Shown piece by piece: positions 2,050-16,970 of a DNA stretch of 21,586 bases (within the stretch, counting starts at the first letter, position 1; the number at the start of each line of letters is the position of its first letter). The DNA comes from a virus. The DNA lies in the IMG/VR virus record IMGVR_UViG_3300017763_000246, positions 1 through 21,586 of that record. The stretch is one strand, 5' to 3'. A program made the translations under genes and the position numbers. The notes under the pieces are model-generated. The model made no database searches. It was not told where the DNA came from and was given only the letters and a program-made list of their open reading frames with translations.

Positions 2050-2645
2050 CTGGATTTGAAGTGTATAAAATGTATCTTGCATTGAAACAGCACTTCACTA
2101 AATCTGATTACGATTACTTCAAATATAGAGGTAAGGTCCGTGCTAATGAAAGTTCCTTTGAGCAAAGACGTGACCGTTATTTCTTTAAAAAATTAGCGAC
2201 AAGGCATTCCGATAAAAGACTATTGGAATACTTTGTCGCTAATTTTATATCAGATCCTCAGGGATATCTAAGATCATTTAGTGAAGATATATACTCTGAG
2301 TGGAGGATACATCAAGAATCTTTCACTTATAAGTTTAAACAAGAGATCGATGTACTATTAGAAGATCTCAATACACCATACGAACAAACGTTTGAAACTA
2401 TTTTCCATACCAAGCGTGGAGAACACCCCCATCTAATAAAACGGTACTTTGCTGGTGAAGTATCAATAGAAACACTCACTGTATTAGAACATTGTTTAGG
2501 GTATGTTAATGATCTTGATAAGAAGTTAACAGATCCCATGTGGAAGGACACTAGGATGCGAATTAAAAAATATGAACCGTTCCTTTCAATAGAATGTAAG
2601 AAATATAAAGGAGTCATTTTAGACGCTATCAAATTAAAACTATGA
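2046..2645 (+). CDS. 59: gp59 helicase loader
   Basis: A 199-residue protein starting at GTG 2046, overlapping the gene 33 stop as GTGA. In T4, gp59 binds forked DNA and gp32 and loads the gp41 replicative helicase. Recognisable features are the VYKMYLALKQHF N-terminus (T4 has a closely similar VYKLYLMIKQH stretch), the RRDRYFFKKL basic helix at about residues 40-49, and the ISDPQGYL segment. The protein is helical and rich in Lys, Arg and Phe, about the length of the T4 protein (a little over 210 residues). The gene 33 / 59 / 32 neighbourhood is the T4 order, with a DUF1825 gene inserted between 59 and 32. Its stop overlaps the following ATG (ATGA). Confidence 0.88.
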   Translation: MTGFEVYKMYLALKQHFTKSDYDYFKYRGKVRANESSFEQRRDRYFFKKLATRHSDKRLLEYFVANFISDPQGYLRSFSEDIYSEWRIHQESFTYKFKQEIDVLLEDLNTPYEQTFETIFHTKRGEHPHLIKRYFAGEVSIETLTVLEHCLGYVNDLDKKLTDPMWKDTRMRIKKYEPFLSIECKKYKGVILDAIKLKL

Positions 2646-2974
2646 GTTTTTTCCAATCAGAACAAGTACAAGAGAATTTACAGGATATATTTAAAACTTA
2701 TCAGCAGGTTGCAGCAGTCACATCTCAACTTGCTACTATGAATACGCAAGAGAAACTAGAACACATTGAAGATTGTAAGATCTTAATTGATAAGCAGAGA
2801 AATTTTTGTTTTAGATTAACTCTCGCTGCATCAGATGACCCTGAGGCGGCTGACATGAAGAGCAGGATCAATTCTTTGACCACTGCCTTTGGGTATAAAG
2901 ACCTCATGGAGTGTCTAGATGCCATGCTTATGACACTTGACCAAGCTGCACAGAGGGAGCTTGACCAACCCTAA
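2642..2974 (+). CDS. DUF1825-like protein shared with cyanobacteria
   Basis: A 110-residue helical protein beginning MSFFQSEQVQENL, then EKLEHIEDCKILIDKQ at about 38-53 and SDDPEAADMKSRI at about 64-76. These three blocks match the small cyanobacterial DUF1825 proteins, which begin MSFF(E/D)SE-VQEE, have EKLEH-(V/I), and carry SDDP-A-EMK. The phage copy inserts two residues before SDDP (LAASDDP) and has a diverged C-terminal third. Function is unknown in host and phage. It is coupled to gene 59 by an ATGA overlap and sits directly before gene 32, a T4-conserved pair, so it was probably acquired by a cyanophage ancestor. The stop codon is embedded in the late promoter box of gene 32. Confidence 0.8.
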   Translation: MSFFQSEQVQENLQDIFKTYQQVAAVTSQLATMNTQEKLEHIEDCKILIDKQRNFCFRLTLAASDDPEAADMKSRINSLTTAFGYKDLMECLDAMLMTLDQAAQRELDQP

Positions 2975-2977
2975 ATA
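2971..2977 (+). promoter_or_regulatory. Putative T4-type late promoter box (CTAAATA) for gene 32
   Basis: CTAAATA overlaps the stop codon of the preceding gene and lies 63 bases before the gene 32 ATG. It resembles the T4 late box TATAAATA recognised by gp55-polymerase with gp33 and the gp45 clamp. The same box occurs at 6493, 7801, 16207 and 19285, and on the - strand at 6517-6523, each time ahead of a gene start, which makes chance unlikely. Confidence 0.6.
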
Positions 2978-2980
2978 GTA

Positions 2981-3040
2981 TGCTACGATAACCTAGTAGC
3001 AGACAAAACAAACTACACATTCAATACGGAGAATACTAAC
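2981..3040 (+). promoter_or_regulatory. gp32 mRNA leader: hairpin plus unstructured tract (putative autoregulatory operator)
   Basis: A perfect 6-bp stem, TGCTAC (2981-2986) with GTAGCA (2996-3001), encloses a 9-base loop. It is followed by a G-poor, A/C-rich stretch (3002-3027) and then a GGAG ribosome site (3028-3031), 9 bases before the ATG. The hairpin spans -60 to -40 from the start codon. In T4, gp32 represses its own translation by nucleating on a structured element at about the same place and spreading along an unstructured leader over the ribosome site. The layout here is the same. I see a hairpin but no second stem for a pseudoknot. Confidence 0.5.
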
Positions 3041-3994
3041 ATGTCTTTTGCATCTCTCAAGAAAGCGTCGTCAGCAGGCAATACGTTTGCTAGATTGACC
3101 AAAGAGATCGAGAAACTTAACCAACCTACTGCTGGTGGTGGCGCTGATGAGCGTCTTTGGAAACCTGAACTGGACAAGTCTGGTAATGGTTATGCAGTAA
3201 TCCGATTCCTCCCTGCTCCTGATGGCGAAGACATGCCTTGGGCGAAGATCTGGAGTCATGCTTTCAAGGGTCCTGGCGGACAGTGGTACATTGAGAACTC
3301 TCTCACCACTGTTGGTAAGGATGATCCTGTTGGCGAAATGAATCGCGAACTGTGGAACAGTGGTCGTGATAGCGATAAGGAGATCGCTCGTGCTCAGAAA
3401 CGTAAACTCTCCTACTACAGCAACATCTATGTTGTAAGTGATCCTGCACACCCCGAGAACGAAGGTCGTGTGTTCCTCTACAAGTTTGGTAAGAAGATCT
3501 TTGACAAACTGGTTGAAGCAATGCAACCTGCATTTGCAGACGAGTCTCCTCTAGATCCTTTCAACTTCTGGAAAGGTGCTGACTTCAAACTGAAGATCCG
3601 TAAGGTTGATGGTTATTGGAACTATGATAAGTCTGAGTTTGCTGCACCTAGCACTCTTGGTAACTTTGATGATGACAAACTGGAATCTATTTGGAAAGAA
3701 GGATACTCTCTTGCAGAGTTTGAAGATGCTAAGAACTTCAAGTCCTATGAGGATCTGAAGAAGCGTCTTAACATGGTTCTTGGACTTACTTCTGCACCTG
3801 CACGTCGTGTTGATGAGTCCTTTGAGGATGAGTCTGAGGGTCGTGGTAATTTCAACTCTCCTGATATCATGGCATCTAATCAACCTGATTGGGCAGCAGA
3901 ACTTAAGGACACTGCAAAGGCAGTTGCTTCCTCTCCTGTACAAGATGAAGATGACACCCTGTCCTACTTCGCACGTCTTGCTGAAGAAGAGTGA
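3041..3994 (+). CDS. 32: gp32 single-stranded DNA-binding protein
   Basis: A 317-residue T4-type ssDNA-binding protein. The N-terminal basic segment (SFASLKKASSAGNTFARL) corresponds to the LAST-type cooperativity domain. The core holds the family signature SHAFKGPGGQWYIENS at about 72-87, and the C-terminus is acidic (VQDEDDTLSYFARLAEEE), the part that contacts partners such as gp59 and polymerase in T4. The protein contains no cysteine at all: where T4 gp32 places its zinc ligands (just after WYIEN) this protein has SLTTVGKDDPVGEMNREL, so the zinc site is absent. A GGAG lies 9 bases before the start. Codons look more GC-rich than in the tail genes, consistent with high expression. Confidence 0.95.
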   Translation: MSFASLKKASSAGNTFARLTKEIEKLNQPTAGGGADERLWKPELDKSGNGYAVIRFLPAPDGEDMPWAKIWSHAFKGPGGQWYIENSLTTVGKDDPVGEMNRELWNSGRDSDKEIARAQKRKLSYYSNIYVVSDPAHPENEGRVFLYKFGKKIFDKLVEAMQPAFADESPLDPFNFWKGADFKLKIRKVDGYWNYDKSEFAAPSTLGNFDDDKLESIWKEGYSLAEFEDAKNFKSYEDLKKRLNMVLGLTSAPARRVDESFEDESEGRGNFNSPDIMASNQPDWAAELKDTAKAVASSPVQDEDDTLSYFARLAEEE

Positions 3995-4571: not shown

Positions 4572-4636
4572 AACCTTAGATTCCCATAAAGTCGCAAAAA
4601 AATGCGCGGCAAAAAATGGGTCTCTAGGGTTTTTTA
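4572..4636 (+). terminator. Large hairpin with T-tract between convergent operons (probably bidirectional)
   Basis: AACCTTAGATTCCCAT (4572-4587) can pair with ATGGGTCTCTAGGGTT (4616-4631) with one G-U pair and a two-base internal mismatch. The loop holds a smaller stem (GTCGC 4591-4595 with GCGGC 4606-4610). A run of six T follows at 4630-4635, giving a good rho-independent terminator for the gene 32 operon. The A-run on the other strand contains the gene 53 stop codon, and transcripts of gene 53 would read the same hairpin, though with a poorer U-tract. Confidence 0.7.
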
Positions 4637-5539
4637 GTATCCACCGCCATAACTAGGCGAAGGTGACGGACTAGGCGAAGGTGATGGAGATGGACTAGGC
4701 GAAGGTGATGGACTGCTCGTAGTAACTGTAGTAGTGGCAGTTGCACCTGTTGATGCGTTGGTTGCAGTGACAGCCGTTGCTACACCCGCTACACTCGAAA
4801 TAGAGGGACCATCATCAAATGTGACTACACCGCTGGAATTAGCTGTAGCAATACCGACACTAGAGTTATATGTAACTGAACCACTAGTATTCAAGAATCT
4901 AGAAGCAAGACTCAGAGGTGTTTTCTTATTACCATCTTCATCTAGTTCAGCATTAGGTTCATAAGCAACTAATTCTTCAAATTCTTCAATAACCATATCG
5001 GCTAATTGACCTGTAGGAATACGAACTTGTCTTTTATATTCATTTAAAGCATATTCATGCTCATAATTTGTTATCGGATAAATGCTCTCTTCAAAAGTTT
5101 TTGTAGTTCCATCTGGTAATATCACACGATAATCTGCAGTTACATTAATACCGCTCTTGATATAAACTGTACCATCATCAAGGATTATCTCATTAGTTTC
5201 ATAATGATTGATACTATCTACATCATCATACTTAGTATTCACATAATTGATTAAATCCTCTTGTTCTAATGGCCATTGTTCATACACATCAGTAATATTG
5301 TTAACAAGAAGAATAACCCAATCTAATTTTGGATCTTTGAAATATTTGTATGCTAAAGAAGAAGGAGTCTCACCTGGTGAGACCTCATGTGCTTCAAACA
5401 TCGTGATATATTGATCTAAGTCAGTTCTGGTATTAACCTTCCGAAATATATTTTTAGACAGTTTATATTTAAAGGTCTCGTTATCATCAACACCTTCTCC
5501 AATATATACATTTGGTAAAAATGAAAAATATCCTGCCAT
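4634..5539 (-). CDS. 53: gp53 baseplate wedge protein with Ig-like and Ser-Pro C-terminal extension
   Basis: A 301-residue protein whose first 190 residues match gp53, the T4 baseplate wedge subunit that closes the assembled wedge onto the hub. The LysM-like core is visible at residues 50-92: PGETPSSLAYKYF, then DPKLDWVILLVNNI, then YEQWPL, as in T4 (pattern: A-IYG-P-L-WVLL-N). T4 gp53 is about 196 residues; the extra hundred here contain a Big2-like segment (about 216-270, SGSVTYNSSVGIATANSSG) and then about ten Ser-Pro pairs ending YGGGY. The start ATG has AAGGA about 9 bases upstream. Gene 48 lies 3 bases upstream on the same strand. The extension may be displayed on the virion surface. 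Confidence 0.88.
   Translation of the reverse strand: MAGYFSFLPNVYIGEGVDDNETFKYKLSKNIFRKVNTRTDLDQYITMFEAHEVSPGETPSSLAYKYFKDPKLDWVILLVNNITDVYEQWPLEQEDLINYVNTKYDDVDSINHYETNEIILDDGTVYIKSGINVTADYRVILPDGTTKTFEESIYPITNYEHEYALNEYKRQVRIPTGQLADMVIEEFEELVAYEPNAELDEDGNKKTPLSLASRFLNTSGSVTYNSSVGIATANSSGVVTFDDGPSISSVAGVATAVTATNASTGATATTTVTTSSPSPSPSPSPSPSPSPSPSPSYGGGY
4652..4711. repeat. 18-bp in-frame tandem repeat encoding the Ser-Pro tail of gp53
   Basis: Three copies of an 18-base unit, ACTAGGCGAAGGTGAYGG on the + strand, lie at 4652-4669, 4670-4687 and 4694-4711, separated once by a 6-base partial unit (4688-4693). Copies differ at one position. The unit is a multiple of three and encodes Ser-Pro three times on the - strand, so slippage would change the tail length without breaking the frame. 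Confidence 0.85.
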
Positions 5540-16466: not shown

Positions 16467-16908
16467 TGATTATATTTTAGGACATTGGTCAAATAAATTT
16501 CAAGCACAATCTGCTCCTCACCATTTTTCTACAGTAGAGATAGTATGGGAGAAAGTAGATGGAGGATATCATTCAAAAAATTATTTCAGGTCTGATGGTC
16601 CTGACAAACCTTATAGAGAAAGGTATCATAAAACTATTACCGTATCAGACACAGAAGTTCGTTTTGAGAACTATGACTTAGACTGGACAAGATGCGAAAA
16701 CTGTGATATGATATTTAAGTTCGATGATAATATCTGGCATGGAAAATTGATTGGCGATCTATGCACAGGTGTTAGAGGGCATAAAGTTATATCTGAGATC
16801 CACCTCTATGGAGACAAACTACATAGTAAAGATCAAGGATATAACACGGAGGGTGAAATGATGTGGGGTTCAGAATGCCTTTACAAATTCATCCGACAGG
16901 GAGAATAA
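16456..16908 (+). CDS. cpeT: CpeT-like T-type phycobiliprotein lyase
   Basis: A 150-residue protein of the CpeT/CpcT family. Signatures in order: GHWSNKFQAQSAPHHF (9-24), KPYRERYH (51-58), and the family end motif DKLHSKDQGYNTEGEMMWGS (120-139). The fold is a calyx that binds bilins and, in hosts, attaches phycoerythrobilin to phycoerythrin beta. A cyanophage homologue has been studied biochemically and binds bilin without clear lyase activity, so a role in keeping host light harvesting going or handling free pigment is likely. The listed start is ATG 16456, 11 bases inside cp12, suggesting coupled translation. Four cysteines (80, 83, 103, 141) are present, two in a CENC pair. The last ten bases are shared with a tRNA gene. 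Confidence 0.87.
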   Translation: MKIDDYILGHWSNKFQAQSAPHHFSTVEIVWEKVDGGYHSKNYFRSDGPDKPYRERYHKTITVSDTEVRFENYDLDWTRCENCDMIFKFDDNIWHGKLIGDLCTGVRGHKVISEIHLYGDKLHSKDQGYNTEGEMMWGSECLYKFIRQGE

Positions 16909-16970
16909 CTCAGCGGTAGAGTGGCTCGTTTACACCGAGTTTGTCGGGGGTTCGATCCCCTCTTTTCCCA
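16899..16970 (+). tRNA. tRNA-Val (anticodon UAC)
   Basis: A 72-base cloverleaf reads cleanly. Acceptor GGGAGAA pairs with TTTTCCC (one G-U); D arm ACTC/GAGT; anticodon arm GCTCG/CGAGT (first pair G-U) with loop TTTACAC, anticodon TAC at 16931-16933; five-base variable loop; T arm GGGGG/CCCTC with loop TTCGATC; discriminator A at 16970. CCA is not encoded. It decodes GUA, which suits an AT-rich phage genome. The first ten bases overlap the end of cpeT, whose TAA stop (16906-16908) forms bases 8-10 of the tRNA. Confidence 0.93.

Follow-up and report, generated by a model that had tools for sequence, protein, structure and literature searches.

The gene 32 locus

The window, that is, the whole 21,586-nt stretch of viral DNA that was analyzed, derives from a T4-like cyanophage in which the genes for gp33, gp59, a DUF1825 family protein, and gp32 follow each other in the same order as in Syn9 and Syn30. 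UvsY was considered as the identity of the reading frame upstream of gene 32 and was dropped for DUF1825; Syn9 has its annotated UvsY-like protein at another locus. The gene 32 leader comprises 66 nt (2975 to 3040) and is followed by the ATG at 3041. The region contains the following features.

2642-2974, plus strand: upstream gene, DUF1825 family, equivalent of Syn9 gp3
2961-2989, plus strand: putative sigma70-type promoter, with -35 TTGACC at 2961-2966, a 17-nt spacer, and extended -10 TGC TACGAT at 2981-2989
2971-2977, plus strand: late-promoter-like CTAAATA with a T4-like TAAATA core, overlapping the upstream stop codon
2981-2986, plus strand: hairpin 5′ arm TGCTAC, common to the extended -10
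2987-2995, plus strand: hairpin loop of 9 nt, GATAACCTA
2996-3001, plus strand: hairpin 3′ arm GTAGCA
3005-3040, plus strand: array of four 9-nt AATMC units, AAAACAAAC, TACACATTC, AATACGGAG, and AATACTAAC, the upstream two degenerate
3028-3031, plus strand: Shine-Dalgarno sequence GGAG, separating the last two array units
3041-3994, plus strand: gene 32, encoding a single-stranded DNA-binding protein (Pfam gp32) whose zinc-ligand Cys residues are replaced

At the positions that we take to be the zinc ligands of gp32, the His is retained and three Cys are replaced, in agreement with the loss of the zinc site pointed out in the first-pass annotation of this DNA. Rfam gave a tRNA as its sole match in the window and nothing credible over positions 2600 to 3400. 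This tRNA gene lies outside the gene 32 region, at 16899 to 16970, and a minus-strand reading frame at 4634 to 5539 has a run of Ser-Pro repeats at its C-terminal end.

Overlapping promoter motifs

Two promoter motifs precede gene 32. One is a near-consensus sigma70-type motif, TTGACC-17-TGCTACGAT, and the 5′ arm of the hairpin falls inside it. Such matches are not rare in this window taken by itself (27 in 8 kb compared to 22.8 expected). The motif is close to invariant among relatives: 238 of the 263 distinct gp32 leaders, and 133 of the 150 leaders that were chosen by protein only, have an exact TTGAC-17-TAnnnT. Transcription from this promoter would start at about 2995 to 2997. The other motif, CTAAATA, resembles the published late-promoter consensus NATAAATA (PMC2984593, excerpt). 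Of the 101 TAAATA sites on the plus strand of Syn9, 41 have a start 15 to 80 nt downstream, compared to 8.2 expected. If the geometry is that which we assume for T4 late promoters, the late start site would be at about 2981 to 2984.

Syn9 has 23 exact sigma70-type motifs, and TAAATA lies within two of them, the one at gp32 included. Gene 32 has both motifs of an overlapping early/late (middle-mode) promoter, an arrangement suggested for middle genes of S-PM2, Syn9, and RB49 (PMC2984593, excerpt). In contrast to that proposal, the two promoters of gene 32 have the arm of an RNA hairpin in common, which means that the same bases can serve as a -10 element and as one arm of an RNA stem. Since the 5′ arm is promoter DNA, RNA begun at the sigma70-type promoter should contain neither this arm nor the stem, and the stem should form only in RNA begun further upstream. 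We recognized no report of mapped gene 32 start sites in the literature searched.

Other combinations of these motifs were also seen. In L219 and L238, a TTGACA...CTAAATAGTATGGTACGAT promoter resembling that of gene 32, without the hairpin, precedes another gene. At Syn9 genome position 18628 (L458), the 17-nt spacer of a sigma70-type promoter located at the upstream stop codon is itself a hairpin (ACACCCTGGACAGGGTGT), and at a late-type site upstream of Syn9 gene 20 (genome position 113916, L460), TAAATA is found at the loop of a CCCTGAT/ATCAGGG inverted repeat.

A hairpin associated with the late-promoter motif

UGCUAC (2981 to 2986) can pair with GUAGCA (2996 to 3001) to form a 6-bp stem with a 9-nt loop at -60 to -40 of the ATG, just as the first-pass annotation had described. 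The fold of the 101 nt around the stem was unremarkable in the window (z = -0.95). For the 36 nt following TAAATA, the window fold had a z score of -4.9 compared to shuffles, and the fold just after TAAATA had a z of less than -1 in 101 of 116 distinct TAAATA leaders. In a 52-row leader alignment, 96.5% of the stem cells were paired, compared to 7 to 68% in slid controls. The same alignment, some rows of which had been retrieved by a pattern that fixed the 5′ arm and left the 3′ arm free, contained 10 double-change cells compared to 1.7 in shuffles, and none of 500 shuffles reached as high a value. At the interior pairs 2 to 6, the departures were 18 G.U cells and no A.C cells, and three cells were non-pairs of other kinds, two of them in pair 2 and one in pair 3. 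Departures in the outermost pair were 2 G.U, 3 A.C, and 5 others. The covariation, together with interior departures that were mostly G.U and never A.C, indicates that the hairpin is an RNA element, one that acts in transcripts begun further upstream.

The hairpin also keeps to the late motif. The -10 starts 12 nt downstream of TAAATA in 85 of the 94 leaders with a hairpin, and in the nine others the offset is -15, -5, 2, 9, or 16. Where the -10 is shifted, as in L055 (-15), L121 (-5), and L070 (16), the hairpin stays with TAAATA, and in L055 and L121 the sigma70-type promoter lies entirely upstream of the stem. The hairpin of L121 has a UUCG-type tetraloop. Six stem pairs at the window-type position were found in 84 of the 101 leaders with TAnATA just upstream, compared to 1 of the 162 others. 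A model, R1, built from alignment A1 matched 35 places in 729,661 bases from 48 sources. All 35, including the sole match in Syn9, were directly before a gp32 start, although R1 encodes sequence plus structure, so that unlike hairpins elsewhere would escape it.

Compensatory changes in the stem, which the first-pass annotation had named as one check on a real hairpin, are thus present in cyanophage leaders, but the hairpin itself has a limited distribution. Among the 150 protein-selected distinct leaders, it was found in 22 by the window-type criterion and in 25 by a looser one. Since most leaders lack the stem, it is not essential to control in general. For instance, a large group with an MSFAALKKQS-type gp32 has the promoter and the tract, and the window-type stem is absent.

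Several other candidate features of the leader were rejected. The distance from the hairpin to the ATG varied from 28 to 42 nt and did not change in steps of the 9-nt unit. Pairing of 2976-2981 with 3033-3038, an alternative fold that would enclose the Shine-Dalgarno sequence, was judged by eye in alignment A1, where G2978 is changed to C in L106, L143, and L157 and the ATAC on the Shine-Dalgarno side is unchanged. The dyad has the wrong spacing and orientation for an NtcA site (GTA-N8-TAC; PMC3037559, excerpt). Long perfect inverted repeats such as those of L068 and L078 are not a general feature, as that of L068 is disrupted in L379, whose gp32 is the same. In L432, L422, L416, and their relatives, a group related to L068, the -35 hexamer lies between the arms of an inverted repeat (e.g., GCAGAGG-ttgacaagtga-CCTCTGC). 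This repeat shows variants of the G.U type and is followed by T-rich DNA, and it may represent an upstream terminator that has become joined to the promoter of gp32.

A 9-nt repeat phased to the start codon

Downstream of the hairpin, the first-pass annotation had described a G-poor, A/C-rich tract running into the ribosome site, and the composition bears this out. Positions -40 to -13 of the window contain 2 G and 22 A+C out of 28, and the 39 nt after the stem are G-poor. The mean G fraction at -40 to -13 was 0.06 in 263 distinct gp32 leaders, compared to 0.18 at other Syn9 gene starts. Neither the repeat that this tract contains nor the promoters overlapping the stem were mentioned in that annotation. 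In the window, the repeat consists of two exact AATMC units and two degenerate ones in register, and its periodicity within the window alone is weak (P = 0.0099 for lag 9; P = 0.084 for any lag).

Across leaders the period is distinct. In the 263 distinct leaders, pattern-selected ones included, AATMC units were spaced 9 nt apart 304 times, compared to 63 times for 8 nt and 58 times for 10 nt, and their positions peaked near -8, -17, -25, and -34 from the ATG, i.e., they are phased to the start codon. The 150 protein-selected leaders had a mean of 2.5 copies per 50 nt, with none in 9 leaders and one in 15. Two units at a period of 8 to 10 nt were present in 108 of these 150 leaders compared to 24 of 7,500 mononucleotide shuffles, and three-unit arrays in 64 compared to 0 of 7,500; the leader sequences are related, and such counts overstate their independence. 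The autocorrelation peaked at lag 9 (0.43, compared to 0.30 in shuffled sequences and 0.29 at 80 other Syn9 starts) and was still 0.42 without the part near the Shine-Dalgarno sequence. Within 50 nt of the ATG, AATMC had a density of 5.0 per 100 nt, compared to 0.34 further upstream. Where the last two copies were intact (70 of 150 leaders), the gap between them was Shine-Dalgarno-like (GAGGT, GGAG, GGAGA, or GAGG) in 62 of the 70.

The array is also nearly confined to gene 32. In 2,084,156 bases, 118 three-unit arrays (not counted as distinct) were in gp32 leaders, and three, which are homologous, were outside; a listed fourth, L127, is itself a gp32 leader. Only 2 of 218 Syn9 genes, gp32 being one, have at least two AATMC units. 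The mean number of copies was 3.1 in 46 leaders whose gp32 has the zinc Cys pattern and 2.2 in the 104 without it, and since the array is present in both groups, the zinc site is not the hinge. These comparisons identify the 9-nt-period array, nearly exclusive to gene 32 leaders, as the widely shared leader element, and the array rather than the hairpin is likely the better operator candidate. In the open-access literature searched, we recognized no report of gp32 autocontrol in cyanophages or of the AATMC repeat.

Comparison with the T4 and RB69 leaders

The first-pass annotation had claimed that the leader matches that of T4 in architecture and spacing and may work in the same way as the T4 operator. 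In T4, a pseudoknot is the first site bound by gp32, which then extends over UUAAA/UAAA repeats, and both elements are essential (PMC535899 and PMC3014915, excerpts); RNase E processing occurs just upstream, at -71 (PMC3014915, excerpt). The part of the comparison that stands is the layout. Before the same gene, the window has its hairpin at -60 to -40 and T4 has GCTATGA-9-TCATAGC at -62 to -40, with a 9-nt loop in both, and in both an unstructured repeat-bearing tract runs through the Shine-Dalgarno sequence, although the copy in the window is degenerate. The pseudoknot did not stand. By the same measure, the run of pairs between the loop and a partner was 4 in T4, 5 in RB69, and at most 3 in the upstream or downstream flanks of the window; relatives gave upstream runs of 2 to 6 with no consistent loop partner, and a T4-like pseudoknot in the window was rejected. 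Thus, T4 has a pseudoknot and UUAAA repeats with a period of 4 to 5, whereas in the window the hairpin is plain and the array, with its 9-nt period, is degenerate. Moreover, the late-promoter-like site is near -156 in T4 and against the hairpin in the window. The window leader does have a stable stem about 40 to 70 nt before the AUG and an unstructured tract of short repeats, but because the 5′ pseudoknot is lacking, we do not class it as a member of the T4 operator type, though we propose that it functions in a similar way.

RB69 gp32 is a proven self-repressor, and its leader has a layout like that of the window, with TATAAATA just upstream of a hairpin (GCTACGA-10-TCGTAGC, -69 to -46) and then TAAAT units. 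These units lie at -36, -27, -18, and -8 (plus one at -32), i.e., in 9- to 10-nt steps with the Shine-Dalgarno sequence in the last gap, like the cyanophage array. RB69 differs in having a pseudoknot partner (the run of 5) and another repeat sequence, and no overlapping sigma70-type -10 was seen there.

Possible control of gene 32

Since the work on T4, it has been an open question how a single-strand-binding protein that is indifferent to sequence picks its own message, and a 2010 review calls for the study of gp32 autocontrol in further T4 relatives (PMC3014915, excerpt). A repeat of constant period that is in phase with the AUG and almost exclusive to the gene 32 leaders of a large group of marine phages, opens this question to direct experiment. 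Our preferred reading, to which we give about an even chance, is that the leader is a compound control region made up of two promoters, a late-RNA hairpin, and an array for gp32 self-repression. At the DNA level, motif and conservation suggest that gene 32 is served by a sigma70-type promoter of its own and by a T4-like late promoter that overlaps it. At the RNA level, RNA that starts at the late promoter or further upstream would carry the 5′ hairpin and sigma70-type transcripts would not, as the covariation and the predicted start sites suggest. The remaining part of the leader, A/C-rich and G-poor, would present units of the AAU(A/C)C type at 9-nt intervals in phase with the AUG, usually with the Shine-Dalgarno sequence as the last spacer. 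When gp32 exceeds the free single-stranded DNA, it could coat the array cooperatively and hide the ribosome site (autogenous translational repression), and the hairpin in late transcripts would perhaps nucleate or bound this coating. The array would then stand in place of the UUAAA repeats of T4, without a pseudoknot, and the hairpin would be an addition to late transcripts. A counterpoint to the array as the gp32 target is its period of 9, compared to 7 nt covered per T4 gp32 monomer (PMC10484735, excerpt) and a period of 4 to 5 in the T4 repeats.

A more specific form, which we consider unlikely and put forward tentatively, is that the array is a phased landing strip on which each 9-nt AAUMC unit seats one monomer of a cooperative gp32 filament. 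The early RNA would have the strip alone and the late RNA the strip plus the hairpin, so that promoter choice would set the switch, with the 5′ hairpin of late RNA starting or capping the filament. Because the Shine-Dalgarno sequence is in the last gap, a filled strip would close the ribosome site. If this is true, self-control of gene 32 would be ancient in T4-like phages, its RNA code having been rewritten lineage by lineage.

Self-repression has to be weighed against an ordinary strong translation-initiation region, in which the array would act as an unstructured enhancer (of the ribosomal protein S1 type) in the synthesis of an abundant protein and the hairpin would stabilize late mRNA at its 5′ end against nucleases, with no gp32 feedback. 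Leaders that are G-poor, unstructured, and A/C-rich can simply aid translation, and the hairpin is at the predicted 5′ end of the late transcript. However, a strict period of 9 nt in phase with the AUG exceeds what composition demands, and the array is near-absent from other genes, as the Syn9 counts illustrate; we therefore regard this explanation as possible but somewhat improbable. The array may instead be the target of another phage translational regulator such as RegA, since regA is annotated in Syn9 and the RegA protein of T4 controls several messages through sites that are unstructured (PMC3014915, excerpt). This very breadth argues against RegA, because the array is nearly confined to gene 32, and of the explanations considered we give this one the smallest chance.

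Two further explanations concern the hairpin only. The inverted repeat might be a DNA operator on the -10, where a bound repressor would shut the early promoter, as its arms overlap the extended -10 and lie on either side of the predicted start site. This is very unlikely, because a DNA site would not be expected to prefer G.U over A.C in its interior deviations (18 compared to 0) and because in L055, L121, and L070 the stem follows TAAATA and not the -10. Alternatively, the hairpin, which begins 7 nt past the DUF1825 stop, might be a 3′-end or partial-termination element of the upstream gp33-gp59-DUF1825 operon unrelated to gene 32, and another clade (L432 and L422) has, by eye, a hairpin around the -35 and then T-rich DNA at the same junction. 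That, too, is improbable, given that no T-run follows the window stem, that the spacing of the stem is fixed to TAAATA, and that in L055 and L121 the stem is found also downstream of the displaced sigma70-type promoter.
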